36,681 bases of DNA from a virus, in IMG/VR virus record IMGVR_UViG_3300048509_000049, positions 1-36,681 of that record. One strand, 5' to 3'. Below, in pieces: positions 1,031 through 36,026 of the stretch. The notes below the pieces were generated by a model. The model had not been told where the DNA came from. It did not search any database and saw only the letters and a list, made by a program, of their open reading frames with translations. The translations under genes were made by a program, and so were the position numbers. Every line of letters begins with the position of its first letter. Within the stretch, counting starts at the first letter, position 1.

Positions 1031-1200
1031 TACTTATCCTTACCTACAATTTTTTGAATTGTTTCTGATTCATAAATACGAATGCCTAGCCATATAATAG
1101 TAAACAGACTAGCTATCGGAGGCAACCAAGCCGCCAAAGACATCACTCCTGTTGATGCTGCAAATACGTCTACAGCTTGTTTGGTTTCCTCAGTCATCAT
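1030..1200 (-). CDS. Small membrane protein, candidate holin
   Basis: This 56-residue protein has a short N-terminal segment (MMTEETKQAVDVFAAS), one hydrophobic segment of about residues 17-42 that includes WLPPIASLFTIIWLGI, and a basic C-terminus ending KIVGKDK. The size, single long hydrophobic segment and charged tail fit a small phage holin or similar inner-membrane protein, and I recall similar sequences among marine phages. A GGGG-containing ribosome site lies six bases before the first of two adjacent ATGs. Its stop overlaps the start of the next gene. A separate 3TM holin exists at 33737-34141, so the holin role is uncertain. Confidence 0.7.
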   Translation of the reverse strand: MMTEETKQAVDVFAASTGVMSLAAWLPPIASLFTIIWLGIRIYESETIQKIVGKDK

Positions 1201-1221
1201 ACTAGTCCCCTTTTATTATTA

Positions 1222-1470: not shown

Positions 1471-4400
1471 TTATAGTACGACTTTTACTACGCCATTTGT
1501 GTGATATAAGCCGCCTACAGGTACACCCGCTAGTTTAGCAGCTGCATCGTTTGTGTGTGAAGTGCTTGCCGCTAGTGCAGGCATTATGACTCCTGAGAAA
1601 TCGCTTGTAGGTACTGCAACAATAAATCCGTTATCCTTTGAGAATGCACTTGTGCCTGTGCCTACTACGAATCTATGGTCGTCTACCCATGTAGAGTTAT
1701 CAGCTGCCGTATAGTATTTTTCTACTGGGTCGTTATAGCCGCCTACTACAACTGAGTAGTTATCCCATTCATAGTTAAACGAACTAGTTAAAAACAGCGG
1801 AGTTTTAAGTCCTTTACCTAAACACACACCGGCTACGCCTAATGTATTGTTATCTTGACCCATAGCTACAGAAAAGTCACCTTCTACTGTGTTGCTTTTA
1901 CCTACGGCAATTCCAGTATCTACATTAGTTACTGAATTGTTTAGCCCTGCAACAAAAGAATTAGAACTTAAAGTAGAGTTATTGTTGCCCGCAACCAGAG
2001 AGTTAGGGGCTGTATCTGCACTATTGAAACTTCCGCATACGACAGCCCCATTAGAACCATCAACTACGTTGCCGAAGCCCCATGAAAAAGCATAGCTGCT
2101 ATCTATTAAAGAAGGCTCTACCCAACCTGCACCGGGGTCATTTCCTATTTTACCGCCAAGTAAACTATACTCAGAGTCTGAATCTATCTGACCTTGTTTC
2201 GCAAAGAGTACAGAGCCTGTGCCGTTATTATTTGCAGCATATATTGTACTGCCATCTAAAACTCCTTCTGCCCATGTAAAGGTGTTATTAGCGTTAGTTT
2301 TTGCGTATAAACCACCTATAAATGAGTTTTTAATTCCTACAGTAGTAGAAGCACTGGTGCCAATTTCTAAATTACCACCAAAGGCTACACAGTTTTCAGC
2401 GCCTCCATGTAGCTTAAGTACACTTCCTTGAGCAAAGTTAGAAGCGGTAAAGCTATCAAAAAACAATTCAAAACCAATACCTACGTTGTTACTTCCGAGG
2501 TTATCAGACTCACGACCTACAAGGAATCCGTAGTCTATGTCTTGGTTTTCTTGTAAATCACCCGCAGTATATGTACCAGTTACATCATCACCAACATGAA
2601 CACCAGTATCAGTTATGTGGAAGCGTTTGGTTTGTTCGCCATCTGCGGCCACTGTGGTTCCGGTTGTCTGTGCCCACCAGTGCATTTCGATTCCATTAGC
2701 ATCTCCGGCTCGCATTTCAATGCCGTTTGTCGGAGTCAAGTTCAAACCCAAATCTGAAGTAATGTTGCCACTTACACTAATATCGCCTATAACATCTAAA
2801 GCTGATGCAGGAGTTTCTGTATTAATACCTACCTTAGCAGGAGCTATTAAGTAATCGTAATCGCCTCTTTGAATATCTTGAACTATAGTAGATTGATACA
2901 CATAAGGACTAGTATTTATATAAGTGTTATAGTCAGACCGTTCGATAGCATCATAGTTGTTATTAGAGTCATTAATAAATGTACTTATAGCCGAACCATC
3001 TGCAGCGAGTATATCACCATCTCCATCAAAGTCTACTAAAGATTTTTGATAGTCTTTCAAAAGGGGCATACCTACTACAACTCCAAGAGCAGTAATAGTT
3101 AAATCAGCAAGTTCTTCAACAGTCCTATCAGTAGTCAAAAGCGGACTAACTGCTGCGGCTTGAAATTCGTAGACTATGATGTCTTGTGTTTTAACGGTAT
3201 CTGCATCAACAGTAGTTGCATCAACAGTAGTTGCATCAACAGTAGTTGCATTTGCGCTAGTAGCAGTTAAAACAGAAAAATCCCCTTGACTAAATGTTGC
3301 AGTAGCTCCATCTACCTCACTTGCTGTTAAAGAAAGTGCTTGTACATCACCTTCTATAGTTACAAGATTAGCAGCTTCTTTATCTATAATAACTCCTTTT
3401 TTATTACGGTAATCGTAAGAGCCGTTAAAAACATCCTGTATAAATGTAGAATTATTTGTAAGGGTTCCATCTATATAATCATCATACTCATCTTTTTCAG
3501 CTTGAGTAAACATGAGGTCGGTGTCGATAAATTTACTAATAAATAATACATCGGAACTATCTATATCTCCATCTCTATATATATCAAAAATATTGAAGTA
3601 TTTGTCAGGAACGGTTAAAGTGCCGGTTGACGCTAGTACTGCGTTAGTTACGTAGTTGTGTAGGTCTGCTACACTTAAACTAGAAGTTAAAAGTTCACTG
3701 TGACTAAGTTTCTTATTTACCACTAATCCATCTGAAGATATATTTCCTTTTGCTATTATTGAACCAGAAGAAGGCGCATTTAAAATAACATCTTTTACGC
3801 TATAATCATATTCTCCATTTAAAACGTCTTCAATAAACGTAGAGGTGTTTGTAAGGGTTCCATCTAAATAATCCTCATACTCTTGTTGGTCAGCGTCTGT
3901 CCAGTGGGTTTTAGCAGAGTTAAGTATAGGTGTCACTGCATCGGCAGAGCCTACAGTGTTGTTATTATCTAAATCAAAAATATCAAAATAAGGATGAAAC
4001 GCATTTATAAAAGTTCCCGCTACTGTTTCATAGTGCTGATTTATATGCATTATTTCAGCTACCCAATTAGCTACTTGGGCAGGAGTTAATCTAAGAGACA
4101 CAAGACTTTCGGGCGTTGCTATGCCAGTAGATGTCCCCACCGCCATTTTACCAACAACATCTAACTCTGCAGAAGGAGTATTAGTATTTACGCCTACTTT
4201 TTTACCTTTTGTTATATTTAATGTAGTTACGTCTTTTTTATCGTATATACTCCAAAGGTTTGTCATGGTAGAACTATCATACTCTTCCCATACACTTAAA
4301 CCTAAATAAATATTTTTATCATCAGTTGCGCTATCATTATAAACGATACCGGCATTTATTGGGTTTTCTTGGAATACTTGTGTGTCGTCATTATCATAGA

Positions 4401-6756
4401 ATAATATTGAGGGATGATTAATAGCGGAAGAAGTAGAAACTACAATGTCTCCTCCGTCTACATTTAACTTAGAATCAGAAAAAGGGTCAGTAGTACCAAT
4501 GCCTACTTTACCGTCATTTTTAAAAGTTACTTTAGGTGCAGAGCCTGTAGGACCACCCAAGAACCAGTAATCATGTTTAGACCTGAACTCAAATCTAGGG
4601 TCAACAGCATCGACTCCTTCGCTTGCTTCAATGCCCATGTAATGTCCAAGCTGTGATTCCATTACGCCATCGACTTTAAAACGATGCTCTATCATTCGTG
4701 CTGTACTGTCTGAAGACATTTCTTGGTCGATATCACAATCAGGAGCCATCAAGTGTAGTTTAGCTGACGGTTCGGTAGTACCTATACCAACCTTACCATC
4801 TCTTGTAATATTTAAATCAGTAAGAAGTTTTGCTTCGGCTAAAGTATCTTCAGTGGCTGTAAATTGATTAAATACGCCAAAGCCTAAGTAGTTAGCCTCG
4901 TTTGTTACGTCTGAGCCATGATATGAAATAACTGCATGTGCAGCATCAGCGCTGTAAGTAGCGTGGTCGTCATTAAATTCAGTAAATATTATAGAAGGTA
5001 TACCGTCAGAACTAGAGTTAGAATCTCCGTCACTAGTAATTTTAATATCACCGCCCTGCACATGGAGTTTAGCATCAGGGCTATCAGTACCTATACCTAC
5101 GTTGCCTGATGTGTCAATACGCATTGAGGATACTGCTGTAGTTCCATCATATCTTTGAAACTGAATACTTCCGTTAGTGGTATTATTTCTTGCTGATATA
5201 GCTGTTGTGCCATTTGAATGATAAAACTCTCCATACTGATTAGTTCCATCAATATCTTGCATTAGTATTTTAGGAAATGCGTCGGCTATATGTAGCGAAT
5301 CATTAGGACTATCAGTACCTATGCCTACTCTGGATTCGCTTGCATCCCAGAATAGGCCGGCAGTTGTGCCATCGTCTTCATAAAAAGTAATGTCACCGTC
5401 TTTATCAATTTCTAATCTATCTACGGTGGAAGCATTGTTTGGGTTTGTACCTAATGTAAGTCCTGTGCCATTTCCATCTGCATCTGAAGAGTAACTGCTA
5501 CGAATCTCTGAGTATCTATTGGCGCCCGTTTTATTTGTAAAAAATATAGCTTGACTGCCTGCATCATCTGAATCATGATGAAAATTAAGAGTTCCCGAAA
5601 GGTAGGCATTATTAAAAGTTTTAGTAGGCCCTCCAAGATTTATTTCTCCAGAACTGGCTATACTCGGAGAAAATACAGCTCCGTCATACTCTAGTGTTTC
5701 ACCTAATCCACCTGCCCCTAAAATTAACGTATCCGTAGCCTTCAAATGAAGGTCAGTATTCGTAGAAATAGAAAGCCCATCATTATTATATCTTTGAACT
5801 TGACCTATTGTTTGATGAGTATCGGTTGCTTGCAGGTACTGTTGAAATTTAATCCAATCATCTGCTCCTTGAGTTGGGTCTACTCTAGTCACTACTACTG
5901 CTGCAGAGTTGTCTGTATTGTCTTTTGTAAAATGTGCAACTCCAGATGACGCTAGGGATGCCCCACTTTCAGTTTCTATTGTGCCATTAGCTGTATGTCC
6001 TACAAGAACTGTGTCAGTAGTCGTTGTCCCATTAACAGTAAGCCCATCCATCGTGGCTGTGCCAGTAACGTCTATACCACCACTAACAGTCTCAAAAGTT
6101 TTATCATTATCATAGTATAACTCTACTCCAGAATTTAAATTAGCTGAAAGATAATTTTCATTTATTCCACCAGTCAATCGTACTTCGTCACCGTTAAGTT
6201 GAAGATTACCTTCGCCAGAGCCAACTGAAATAATTCCCGAACTAACACTTTCAGCGTAACCCAGCACTAGCTCTTCAGAGCCAGAAGTTCCGAATTTTAA
6301 AAGCGCCTCGTCCTCAAGGATAATAGCTGTGGTCGCAGTCAAGTTACTGGCGTTAACATCTGTTGAGTTTACAGTTTCTGCTGTTAGTGTAGTAATATTA
6401 GCTGTAGAAAACGGGCTAGATACAGTTCCTAAACTTGTACCCGCAGCAACAGGAACTAGTCCGTCTGCAGAAACATTTAAAATCTCAGTAGATGTAGTGC
6501 CACCTACTTCAATAAAAAGTTTAATAAGATTATTAGTACCATCAATTTCAATTTTATTATTGAAATCTATATCTCCAATCTTAGGAATTGCGCCACCGTT
6601 TTCCGCAGAGCCGTCATGTATATGACCTGTATTACTAGGGTCAGTGCTGCTATATGTGAACGCTGCCGTAAGTTTATTAAAATCGTTATTAAACAAAGAC
6701 GCAGAAATAACATTTCCTGTTTCGTAGCTGCTGAATTTACTATATCCTCTAGCCAT
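1471..6756 (-). CDS. Giant tail fibre with dockerin-like and YadA-head-like repeats
   Basis: A 1761-residue structural protein, much the largest in the window. The start (MARGYSKFSSYETGN) has an AGGAGA ribosome site. Its middle carries at least six copies of a motif of the type GKVGIGTTxPSAKLHV, common in phage fibres. Three modules each hold one 12-residue EF-hand loop of dockerin type: near residue 925 (DLDNNNTVGSAD), near 1057 (DIYRDGDIDSSD) and near 1242 (DFDGDGDILAAD). Each module ends in a repeat such as STFIEDVLNGEYDY. A VDATT triplet repeat lies near residue 1175. Residues of about 1480-1700 contain SFVAGLNNSV- and IAVGKSNTV-type repeats that resemble the left-handed beta-roll of the YadA head. 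No Peptidase S74 chaperone motif is visible at the end. The likely role is host recognition; the calcium binding is inferred. Confidence 0.88.
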   Translation of the reverse strand: MARGYSKFSSYETGNVISASLFNNDFNKLTAAFTYSSTDPSNTGHIHDGSAENGGAIPKIGDIDFNNKIEIDGTNNLIKLFIEVGGTTSTEILNVSADGLVPVAAGTSLGTVSSPFSTANITTLTAETVNSTDVNASNLTATTAIILEDEALLKFGTSGSEELVLGYAESVSSGIISVGSGEGNLQLNGDEVRLTGGINENYLSANLNSGVELYYDNDKTFETVSGGIDVTGTATMDGLTVNGTTTTDTVLVGHTANGTIETESGASLASSGVAHFTKDNTDNSAAVVVTRVDPTQGADDWIKFQQYLQATDTHQTIGQVQRYNNDGLSISTNTDLHLKATDTLILGAGGLGETLEYDGAVFSPSIASSGEINLGGPTKTFNNAYLSGTLNFHHDSDDAGSQAIFFTNKTGANRYSEIRSSYSSDADGNGTGLTLGTNPNNASTVDRLEIDKDGDITFYEDDGTTAGLFWDASESRVGIGTDSPNDSLHIADAFPKILMQDIDGTNQYGEFYHSNGTTAISARNNTTNGSIQFQRYDGTTAVSSMRIDTSGNVGIGTDSPDAKLHVQGGDIKITSDGDSNSSSDGIPSIIFTEFNDDHATYSADAAHAVISYHGSDVTNEANYLGFGVFNQFTATEDTLAEAKLLTDLNITRDGKVGIGTTEPSAKLHLMAPDCDIDQEMSSDSTARMIEHRFKVDGVMESQLGHYMGIEASEGVDAVDPRFEFRSKHDYWFLGGPTGSAPKVTFKNDGKVGIGTTDPFSDSKLNVDGGDIVVSTSSAINHPSILFYDNDDTQVFQENPINAGIVYNDSATDDKNIYLGLSVWEEYDSSTMTNLWSIYDKKDVTTLNITKGKKVGVNTNTPSAELDVVGKMAVGTSTGIATPESLVSLRLTPAQVANWVAEIMHINQHYETVAGTFINAFHPYFDIFDLDNNNTVGSADAVTPILNSAKTHWTDADQQEYEDYLDGTLTNTSTFIEDVLNGEYDYSVKDVILNAPSSGSIIAKGNISSDGLVVNKKLSHSELLTSSLSVADLHNYVTNAVLASTGTLTVPDKYFNIFDIYRDGDIDSSDVLFISKFIDTDLMFTQAEKDEYDDYIDGTLTNNSTFIQDVFNGSYDYRNKKGVIIDKEAANLVTIEGDVQALSLTASEVDGATATFSQGDFSVLTATSANATTVDATTVDATTVDADTVKTQDIIVYEFQAAAVSPLLTTDRTVEELADLTITALGVVVGMPLLKDYQKSLVDFDGDGDILAADGSAISTFINDSNNNYDAIERSDYNTYINTSPYVYQSTIVQDIQRGDYDYLIAPAKVGINTETPASALDVIGDISVSGNITSDLGLNLTPTNGIEMRAGDANGIEMHWWAQTTGTTVAADGEQTKRFHITDTGVHVGDDVTGTYTAGDLQENQDIDYGFLVGRESDNLGSNNVGIGFELFFDSFTASNFAQGSVLKLHGGAENCVAFGGNLEIGTSASTTVGIKNSFIGGLYAKTNANNTFTWAEGVLDGSTIYAANNNGTGSVLFAKQGQIDSDSEYSLLGGKIGNDPGAGWVEPSLIDSSYAFSWGFGNVVDGSNGAVVCGSFNSADTAPNSLVAGNNNSTLSSNSFVAGLNNSVTNVDTGIAVGKSNTVEGDFSVAMGQDNNTLGVAGVCLGKGLKTPLFLTSSFNYEWDNYSVVVGGYNDPVEKYYTAADNSTWVDDHRFVVGTGTSAFSKDNGFIVAVPTSDFSGVIMPALAASTSHTNDAAAKLAGVPVGGLYHTNGVVKVVL
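3190..3250 (-). repeat. 15-bp tandem repeat in the fibre gene
   Basis: GCATCAACAGTAGTT occurs as consecutive copies on the plus strand, coding VDATT units in the fibre (near residue 1175). Flanking ATTA and VDADT units are decayed copies. It marks a slippage-prone linker between fibre modules. Confidence 0.8.
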
Positions 6757-29992: not shown

Positions 29993-31876
29993 ATGGATAA
30001 GTATCAACAGTTTATACACAAATCAAGATACGCTCGATGGCTTTCAGAAGAAGGCAGGCGTGAGACTTGGGAAGAAACAGTACAGAGATATGTAGACTTC
30101 TGGGTTAACCGCAAACAAATAGACAAGAAAACAGCTGAGCGTTTGTATGATGGAATCGTAACACAAAAAGTAATGCCATCTATGCGCTGTATGATGACAG
30201 CGGGCGAAGCACTGGACAAAGATAACGTAGCAGGATTCAACTGTAGCTACCTAGCTATCGACTCGCCTCGAAGCTTTGATGAGCTGATGTATGTTCTTAT
30301 GTGCGGCACAGGTGTTGGCTTCAGTGTTGAGCGTAACTTCATCAACAAACTCCCTATTGTAGCAGAAGAGTTTCACCCTACAGATACTACGATTGTAGTG
30401 GCTGACAGTAAGATTGGTTGGGCTAGTGCATTCCGTGAGTTAATCGCTATGCTTTATGCAGGTAAGATACCTAAGTGGGACATGAGTAAGGTACGCCCAT
30501 CGGGTGCTAGGCTCAAGACCTTTGGTGGTCGTGCATCGGGTTCTGCTCCACTGGCTGACCTATTTAGATTCTGTGTAGAAGTATTTCAGAAAGCCGGTGG
30601 TCGTAAGCTAACAAGCATTGAGTGTCACGATGTTGTGTGTAAGGTTGCAGACATTGTAGTTGTTGGTGGTGTTAGACGTTCAGCACTTATAAGTCTATCA
30701 AACCTATCAGACATTCGTATGGCTAAGGCTAAGACAGGTGCATGGTGGGAAGCAGACGGACACAGACGATTGGCTAACAACAGTGTAGCGTACACAGAGA
30801 AGCCAGACTTCGAAGCCTTCATCAACGAAATGAAGACTCTATACGAAAGCCGTGCAGGTGAACGAGGATTGTTTAGTCGTGTAGCTGCTCAGAATATTGC
30901 AGCTCGTAACGGACGTAGAGATTCTGAGCAGGACTTTGGTACTAACCCTTGCTCTGAGATTATCTTACGCAGCAATCAGTTCTGTAATCTATCTGAGGTT
31001 GTTGTACGTGAAGATGATACAGCTGAAACACTGAAAGAAAAAGTAGAGTTAGCTGCTATCATTGGTACGCTTCAGGCTACTCTTACAGACTTTAGATACT
31101 TACGTAATGTCTGGCACAAGAATACAGCCGAAGAAGCATTGCTTGGTTTAAGCATGACTGGTATCATGGATAACAAACTATTGTCTGGTCAAGAAGACCA
31201 AGAAGAACTAGAGAAAACTTTGGAGAGCTTAAGAGATGTCGCTATTGCAACCAATAAGAAATGGGCTAAGAAGCTTGGCATTGAACAGTCTGCAGCTATT
31301 ACTTGTGTTAAGCCTAGCGGTACTGTGTCTCAGCTTGTCGATTCTGCTTCTGGGATTCACCCTCGTTTCTCTAAACATTACATTCGGAGAGTACGTTCAG
31401 ACAAGAAAGACCCGCTTGCAGTCTTTATGGAAGCAGCAGGATTCCCAGTAGAACAAGATGTAATGTCAGAGTCTTCTGTGGTATATAGCTTCCCTGTTAA
31501 AGCACCAGAAGCTAGTGTAGTGGTGAAAGAAGTAGGAGCTATGGAGCAGTTGAAACTATGGAAGACTTATCAGAACTCTTGGTGCGAGCACAAGCCAAGT
31601 ATCACTGTGTATTATACAGACGATGAGTACTTACAAGTAGCTCAGTGGATATGGGATAACTTTGATATATGTTCAGGTATTAGCTTACTGCCTGTTAGTG
31701 ACCATGTATATCAGCAAGCACCCTATGAAGATATAGATGCTGAGCAGTATACTAAGCTGCTTGAGTCAATGCCACAGAACGTGAACTGGAATGACTTAGT
31801 TTACTTTGAACAAGAAGATAACACCACCGGCTCACAGGAGTTAGCTTGTGTCGGTGGCGCTTGTGAAATAGTATAA
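29993..31876 (+). CDS. nrdJ: Class II (B12-dependent) ribonucleotide reductase
   Basis: A 627-residue enzyme of the monomeric adenosylcobalamin-dependent class. Evidence is FNCSYLAIDSPRSFDELMYV and MCGTGVGFSVERNF near the N-terminus, NPCSEIILRSNQFCNLSEV (about residue 318, active-site Cys region), ITCVKPSGTVSQLVDSASGI (about 440), and a C-terminal ACVGGACEIV with the redox Cys pair. It converts ribonucleotides to deoxyribonucleotides for phage DNA synthesis and needs B12 from the host or the sea. No small subunit or activase gene is present, as expected for class II. No intron or intein is seen. Confidence 0.93.
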   Translation: MDKYQQFIHKSRYARWLSEEGRRETWEETVQRYVDFWVNRKQIDKKTAERLYDGIVTQKVMPSMRCMMTAGEALDKDNVAGFNCSYLAIDSPRSFDELMYVLMCGTGVGFSVERNFINKLPIVAEEFHPTDTTIVVADSKIGWASAFRELIAMLYAGKIPKWDMSKVRPSGARLKTFGGRASGSAPLADLFRFCVEVFQKAGGRKLTSIECHDVVCKVADIVVVGGVRRSALISLSNLSDIRMAKAKTGAWWEADGHRRLANNSVAYTEKPDFEAFINEMKTLYESRAGERGLFSRVAAQNIAARNGRRDSEQDFGTNPCSEIILRSNQFCNLSEVVVREDDTAETLKEKVELAAIIGTLQATLTDFRYLRNVWHKNTAEEALLGLSMTGIMDNKLLSGQEDQEELEKTLESLRDVAIATNKKWAKKLGIEQSAAITCVKPSGTVSQLVDSASGIHPRFSKHYIRRVRSDKKDPLAVFMEAAGFPVEQDVMSESSVVYSFPVKAPEASVVVKEVGAMEQLKLWKTYQNSWCEHKPSITVYYTDDEYLQVAQWIWDNFDICSGISLLPVSDHVYQQAPYEDIDAEQYTKLLESMPQNVNWNDLVYFEQEDNTTGSQELACVGGACEIV

Positions 31877-34625: not shown

Positions 34626-35461
34626 TCACATTCTCCTGTCATAAAGCATTTGTATCCTTGAGCTGTAGGGCCAGTAAGATAATACTCTGAGTCGCTACCC
34701 GCAGCTAATATGTCCGCCTCGCTTAAATATAAGTCTAGCCCCATGTCCGTAGTGCCGTTTAAATAAACAGCTGTTAGGTTCCGTGTGGTGTTGTAGCCCA
34801 TTGTTACCCACTGCTGATTAGCATCATACATAATACTTGTCTGCTCTGCGGTAGTGTTTGCGTTCTCAATACCCTGCTCTAAAAAGGCTACTGCATCTTC
34901 AGAGTTTGCTACAGATAAATAAGCTGAGGCGTTATTAGCGTGAGTTTCAATATCATCTACTGACTGATTATACGTATCTACATCTTCTTGAGAGATAGAA
35001 AGAACTTCTTGATTTGAAGACACAAACTCTAACACTTCTGCTTCTTGTGCAGGTGTAGCCGCTTCTTCAACTCTTTCAGCTACCTCTACGACTTGAACCA
35101 TTTCAATAACAACGTCAGTAAATGTCTCAACAGCGTTGCTCATTAACTCTAGCTCGTCCATAGCTTTGTTTTCTAATACAGCTTTAATGTCTCCATAGGG
35201 CTGATAGGTAGTAGCAAAGTTATTTAAAGCAGCGTTGTAAGCATCAAGTTGTTCGGTACTGATGTGCGCTGTAGTTGAAAGAGTTCCATCGCTCAGTGCA
35301 TCACCGTGATGTGCATACTCAGTAGCAGCTCCAACAAGCATAGTTCCAGTATCAATTTGATTTACAATAGCAGTAGAAGTATTCAGTAAGTTATCTAGCT
35401 CACTTGATGCTGTTGCGGAACTTAGCACTAACAGAGATAATATCTTCAGCTTGTTCTTCAT
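34622..35461 (-). CDS. Exported helical protein, unknown
   Basis: A 279-residue protein with a signal peptide (MKNKLKILSLLVLSSATASS). The mature part is acidic and mostly helical, with long Ala/Glu/Asn-rich runs (VVEVAERVEEAATPAQEAEV). A C-terminal Tyr/Gly-rich part follows, including NTTRNLTAVYLNGTTDMGL and a final CFMTGECE with two Cys. The signal peptide is coded by bases that also encode the end of the upstream exported protein (62-base overlap, different frame). GGAGAA precedes the ATG. Function unknown; a periplasmic or envelope role during lysis or superinfection control is possible. Confidence 0.7.
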   Translation of the reverse strand: MKNKLKILSLLVLSSATASSELDNLLNTSTAIVNQIDTGTMLVGAATEYAHHGDALSDGTLSTTAHISTEQLDAYNAALNNFATTYQPYGDIKAVLENKAMDELELMSNAVETFTDVVIEMVQVVEVAERVEEAATPAQEAEVLEFVSSNQEVLSISQEDVDTYNQSVDDIETHANNASAYLSVANSEDAVAFLEQGIENANTTAEQTSIMYDANQQWVTMGYNTTRNLTAVYLNGTTDMGLDLYLSEADILAAGSDSEYYLTGPTAQGYKCFMTGECE

Positions 35462-36026
35462 TTACAGTTTCTCCAATGTTTAAAATAGTATCGTACCATT
35501 CTTTAGTTTTGCGGTTATAGTCTGGGATATAAATCTCAGGCTGCATTTTAAGAGCTAGGTATGCTCTCTTTCCTGCTACTAGTCTAGAGTTTTGCAGTAT
35601 GGGGCAAGGTGTGCCTGATGTTAACATAGCCTTCCAAACCTCTAAAGACTCACACATTCTAGATACTGCTGCAACTTTCATGCCTAAGTCAGATAACAAT
35701 TTAGCATCTCTACGTCTATCACAGTTAGGGTCGATGTCGTACGTGCCGCTACTAAACCCTACGCCTACTGTTTGCAACGAGCCGCCTGAACCTTTTAAGC
35801 AAGTGTCCATACCGTTAGACATGTAGCTTGGCGTGATTGCAGAACCTACTGGGATTTCAGAACTGCTTCCTGCACCGTTGTATGTATTACTAACTGAATC
35901 GTCTTGCGTGTTGTTGTTGCTATTGGTAGTTGAGTTCTCACCGTGAAAAGTATTTAAACTACCTTCCTGAGCATTATCCGCTAACACGGACACAGACATA
36001 AACAACATAAACAAAATACGAAACAT
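35400..36026 (-). CDS. Exported cysteine-containing protein, unknown
   Basis: A 208-residue protein with signal peptide MFRILFMLFMSVSVLADNAQ. A Ser/Asn/Thr-rich linker (residues of about 30-60) leads to a domain with five Cys: DTCLKGSGGS, DPNCDRRRDAKLLSDLG, RMCESLEVWKAM and GTPCPILQNSRLVAGKRAYL supply four, plus helices at the end. I recall similar unnamed proteins in marine phages. The start at 36026 has GGAAG seven bases upstream and overlaps the endolysin stop (TAATG). It has no lipobox. Being beside the endolysin suggests envelope action. Confidence 0.7.
   Translation of the reverse strand: MFRILFMLFMSVSVLADNAQEGSLNTFHGENSTTNSNNNTQDDSVSNTYNGAGSSSEIPVGSAITPSYMSNGMDTCLKGSGGSLQTVGVGFSSGTYDIDPNCDRRRDAKLLSDLGMKVAAVSRMCESLEVWKAMLTSGTPCPILQNSRLVAGKRAYLALKMQPEIYIPDYNRKTKEWYDTILNIGETVNEEQAEDIISVSAKFRNSIK

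Follow-up and report, generated by a model that had tools for sequence, protein, structure and literature searches.

Calcium modules of the dockerin type are known above all from cellulosomes. The type I dockerin (PF00404; 1OHZ chain B, from C. thermocellum xylanase Y) is a helix-loop-helix with a loop of the form D-x-[DN]-x-[DN]-[GN]-x-hydrophobic-x-x-x-D, and it shares both features with the modules described here. Two other systems resemble the protein that carries these modules. The Bdellovibrio MAT fibres and the phage fibres with VGIGT repeats (8OND) are domain mosaics on trimeric beta-helix fibres, and the heads of YadA/UspA1-type trimeric autotransporters contain a beta-roll. In the Bdellovibrio MAT fibres, variety has been described at the C-termini (PMC10769870). 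A literature search gave no paper that describes dockerin domains in the fibres of marine phages. Here we show that one such fibre carries three modules of a kind that is new and mobile, has a single loop, and is either a relative of dockerins or a look-alike.

The window analysed is a whole virus record of 36,681 bases. It contains an ORF of 1,761 amino acids on the minus strand (1471-6756), which adjoins genes with terminase, portal, head and tail family matches. A tail protein encoded nearby shares 43-48% identity with its counterparts in the Pelagibacter phages HTVC115P, HTVC104P and HTVC103P, with HMO-2011 more distant, and the ORF is the tail fibre of a marine HMO-2011/HTVC115P-like phage. 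Its conserved, virion-proximal part (residues 1-125; 6382-6756, minus strand) is about 35-69% identical to the N-termini of related-phage fibres downstream of the tail protein, and matches the fibre gene at the same position in 60 related loci. A repetitive shaft with VGIGT..KLHV repeats follows (residues 126-883; 4108-6381, minus strand). These repeats match 8OND, the Bdellovibrio MAT fibre Bd2133 (E 4e-7), and fibres of cyanophages and pelagiphages match the shaft as well. The C-terminal part (residues 1331-1761; 1474-2766, minus strand) is a YadA/UspA1-like beta-roll with a tip, matching the UspA1 beta-roll (3ntn, E 1.8e-5) and, weakly, LbR_Ice_bind; it is common to viral contig L009, where it lies inside a stretch of 59% identity. 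Elsewhere in the window, a 627-aa product (29993-31876) matches B12-dependent ribonucleotide reductase domains.

All three modules lie in the same fibre, on the minus strand. Module 1 (residues 884-992; 3781-4107) has the loop DLDNNNTVGSAD at residue 928, module 2 (residues 1021-1120; 3397-3696) has DIYRDGDIDSSD at residue 1058 and module 3 (residues 1205-1306; 2839-3144) has DFDGDGDILAAD at residue 1242. A shaft linker of repeated ATTVDATTVDATT separates modules 2 and 3 (residues 1121-1204; 3145-3396, minus strand). There is one EF-hand-type loop in each of the three, and all share the end S-T-[FI]-x-x-D-[VI]-x-x-G-x-Y-D-Y (STFIEDVLNGEYDY, STFIQDVFNGSYDY and STIVQDIQRGDYDY). The loops are where the initial annotation had reported them, and the shared end is confirmed as well, but the modules proved to be about 98-105 residues long rather than 70-90, and to span about 2839-4107 of the window rather than 2845-4060. 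Local alignment scores among the modules were 160, 112 and 81, whereas shuffled sequences averaged about 30-33 and peaked at 63-66, indicating that the modules are clearly homologous copies of one small domain; the homologous stretches are residues 885-989, 1022-1119 and 1206-1304. A loop motif fitting all three was expected 0.14 times per shuffled protein and reached three occurrences in 4 of 5,000 shuffles; since this motif was fitted after the fact, and a strict EF-hand pattern found just the loop of module 3 while a more permissive pattern found two loops, the loops by themselves carry modest weight as evidence. Asp or Asn occupies loop positions 1, 3, 5 and 12 in modules 1 and 3. Module 2 has Tyr at calcium-ligand position 3, which corrects the canonical loop previously assigned to every module.

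Structure prediction, which had been proposed as a check on the modules, supported a helix-loop-helix fold. AlphaFold gave a helix-loop-helix for module 2 (five alignment rows, pLDDT 67) and module 3 (eight alignment rows, pLDDT 81, pTM 0.78), and module 1 is assigned the same arrangement by homology only. In both models a long and a short helix precede the loop and three more helices follow it; the helices of module 3 span residues 14-28, 36-42, 52-63, 71-83 and 92-98, and the predicted calcium loop separates the second helix from the third. Among solved structures, type I dockerins matched best, namely 1ohz_B for module 2 (Z 5.2, 53 of 56 residues, 2.4 A) and 2ccl_B for module 3 (Z 4.2, 58 of 62 residues, 3.1 A), in the Z 4-5 range in which, as the tool warns, a match may reflect merely a common arrangement; Foldseek E values were above 0.5. 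The alignment covers only the first ~60-65 residues, so the segment standing where dockerins have their first loop seems degenerate, and the final ~40 residues are an addition. The models thus point to a module whose first ~60 residues probably resemble a dockerin, with one loop of EF-hand type and a degenerate segment in the place of the first, followed by two short helices ending in YDY.

Module 2 scored 23.5 bits against Dockerin_1 (PF00404; gathering cut-off 22.9), its best stretch corresponding to profile positions 23-56 of 57, the second half. For modules 1 and 3 PF00404 was not listed by Pfam at E 10, a Pfam scan of the whole fibre detected no dockerin, and the relatives of the module in other contigs scored 13.9 and 17.2 bits or gave nothing. 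When eight modules were aligned by hhalign with one dockerin of approximate sequence, the probability was 14% (E 0.0019) and the match covered the second half only; the same approximate dockerin, used as a search query, returned nine records only, from human faecal samples or Ruminococcus. PHROGs yielded nothing useful for the modules. The two-segment build of dockerins was not found: each module has a single loop, and the place of the first (for example LLTTSRSIQDL) is without ligands. The dockerin-like EF-hand reading of the initial annotation is partly borne out: the Pfam hit of module 2, the helix-loop-helix models of modules 2 and 3 and the dockerins as best solved matches speak for it. 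The modules are nevertheless not canonical dockerins, for they have a single calcium loop in place of two and an additional helical portion at the C-terminus, and they score weakly in structural comparison. The same Pfam hit and structural matches would also be expected of true dockerins, each docking on a domain of cohesin type that belongs to the host surface or to a different protein of the virion. This seems very improbable to us, as each module has one canonical F-hand, not two, and loop positions 10-11 differ among them (SA, SS and AA). Furthermore, a cohesin-like partner had been suggested as worth seeking in the rest of the genome, and no match to PF00963 was found at E 10 in this possibly incomplete record, which makes a cohesin partner unlikely.

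Relatives of the module were found in four other viral contigs only. L009 has two copies (L009a and L009b), and a profile-guided search gave L118, L120 and L121, each with a single copy. Single-protein and three-row bait searches of the viral contigs gave no relatives, and the final scan of these contigs added none. Bait searches of bacterial genomes were likewise negative, and among isolated phages no module relative was detected at E 1, the lone hit falling in the linker after L009b. Among 31 complete fibres in related loci, only that of L009 contains the module. Matches to the pattern QD[VI]xxGxYDY were rejected, being unrelated proteins only. In a tree, module 3 grouped with L009b, module 1 with module 2, and the remaining four copies together. 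The pN/pS of the module was 0.4-0.7, which fits mild purifying selection.

Comparison of the loops in L009a, L118, L120 and L121 revealed that positions 1, 3, 5, 6, 8, 10 and 12 are invariant and that positions 2, 4, 7, 9 and 11 vary. Such spacing in four close copies is the EF-hand pattern, that of a calcium loop in use. Ligands at positions 1, 3, 5 and 12 are present in these four copies as in modules 1 and 3. In L009b, the counterpart of module 3, the loop is broken by an insertion (NFNGQTSSGDMITSMD), showing that the calcium site can be lost; together with the missing position-3 ligand of module 2, this indicates that the predicted calcium binding is not strictly conserved. The same two exceptions would suit acidic loops that arose in a helical domain by chance and do not bind calcium. 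We consider that unlikely, because ligand positions stay fixed in the four close relatives amid interleaved positions that vary, and because the models of modules 2 and 3 place the loop between two helices.

The fibres that carry the module have different anchors and tips. The L121 fibre has a T7-type N-terminus with collagen repeats and the L118 fibre an S74 chaperone end, the fibre in the window bears the YadA-like beta-roll, and the L118, L120 and L121 fibres differ from one another in both anchors and tips. In addition, the cassette (~450 bp, 74% identity) is the only DNA that L009 and L121 have in common; between L009 and L118 or L120 its DNA is 77-80% identical. The variety of anchors and tips, and the sole shared DNA in one pair, identify the module as a mobile shaft cassette, and these computations support its exchange between fibre genes of otherwise unrelated phages. 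L118 and L120 have the repeated linker ADLSGATFTG ahead of the module, and L009 has a close variant of it; this linker could be a recombination point.

Several other observations concern the surroundings of the fibre gene and dockerin-type loops in other proteins. Just downstream of it, a holin-like ORF of 56-57 residues (1033-1203, minus strand) is 100% identical in L002, 95% in L009 and 87% in L118. The last value, found despite a different head protein family (phrog_1328 in L118 and phrog_267 in the window), suggests that the fibre neighbourhood was exchanged as a block. The right end of the window (34788-35978) has 72% DNA identity to L118 10169-11356, the stretch that immediately follows the holin-like ORF there; in the genome, therefore, the two ends of the record probably adjoin each other. 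Single N-terminal dockerin-type loops, PDLNKDGE[VI]TQADVLMG, occur in L062 (6621-7364), L069 (2622-3833) and L071 (5464-7083), and the loop-bearing proteins of L062 and L069 match tape-measure/endolysin families. In L016 (5316-8153), L017 (9650-13396) and L034 (14334-20768), further large ORFs that lie downstream of the fibre have single dockerin-like loops.

What role might such a cassette play in the fibre? In our view it is probably a dockerin-like, one-loop helical cassette, exchanged among fibres, that is likely to act as a Ca2+-structured lateral binding or standoff domain of a trimeric fibre. The shaft, and what is established in fibre biology, lead us to infer a trimer, in which the cassette would be spliced between beta-repeat segments. 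Three modules per chain on three chains would then give nine domains projecting sideways along the shaft. Calcium in seawater is about 10 mM. At this level it would be expected to fill the single EF-hand-type site, so that the fold is fixed and the domain becomes rigid once outside the cell. The modules might then contact the host surface or a partner from the side, with primary recognition presumably left to the C-terminal tip. The main rival is that the modules are chiefly structural, serving as spacers, hinges or register elements, made rigid by calcium, that interrupt the long beta-repeat shaft, with no ligand of their own. Their place in mid-shaft rather than at the tip, their one to three copies per fibre and their strongly acidic character (net charge -11 to -14 in all three) are in keeping with such a role, to which we give a smaller yet real chance; however, exchange as discrete cassettes between unrelated fibres, and identities of 17-35% between copies within one fibre, are equally consistent with a domain that binds or diversifies. 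A bolder version of the lateral binding domain, quite unlikely in our estimate, is a calcium-gated mobile module that would stay unfolded within the host cytoplasm, where calcium is low, and fold only in seawater, arming the released fibre with nine lateral binding domains as an accessory adhesin traded among marine phages.

The one-loop version of the dockerin type recurs in phage fibres as an exchangeable part, one that a whole-fibre Pfam scan overlooks. It offers a defined, expressible domain with which the effect of seawater calcium on phage adsorption can be tested, and it allows evolution by module exchange to be studied in fibre shafts, not in tips alone. Some phage proteins in BFVD are called 'Dockerin type 1' (A0A8S5M688 and A0A8S5NQH0) and have ~40-45 residues of fold in common with the modules; Foldseek of BFVD gave no significant match, these two being weak (E 4.7-7.5, probability 0.30) and alike in fold comparison only. 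Compared with type I dockerins, the modules have a degenerate first calcium loop and a ~40-residue C-terminal helical extension, and they sit mid-chain in a phage fibre, in a record without a detected cohesin. Having one loop in place of two, they fall outside that family, but they may still work similarly. The likeness to the YadA/UspA1-type head is confined to the C-terminal part of a protein that is here a phage fibre, with calcium-loop modules upstream. In contrast to the Bdellovibrio MAT fibres, whose Bd2133 repeats its shaft resembles, this fibre has an all-helical calcium-loop domain inserted within the shaft itself, up to three times.
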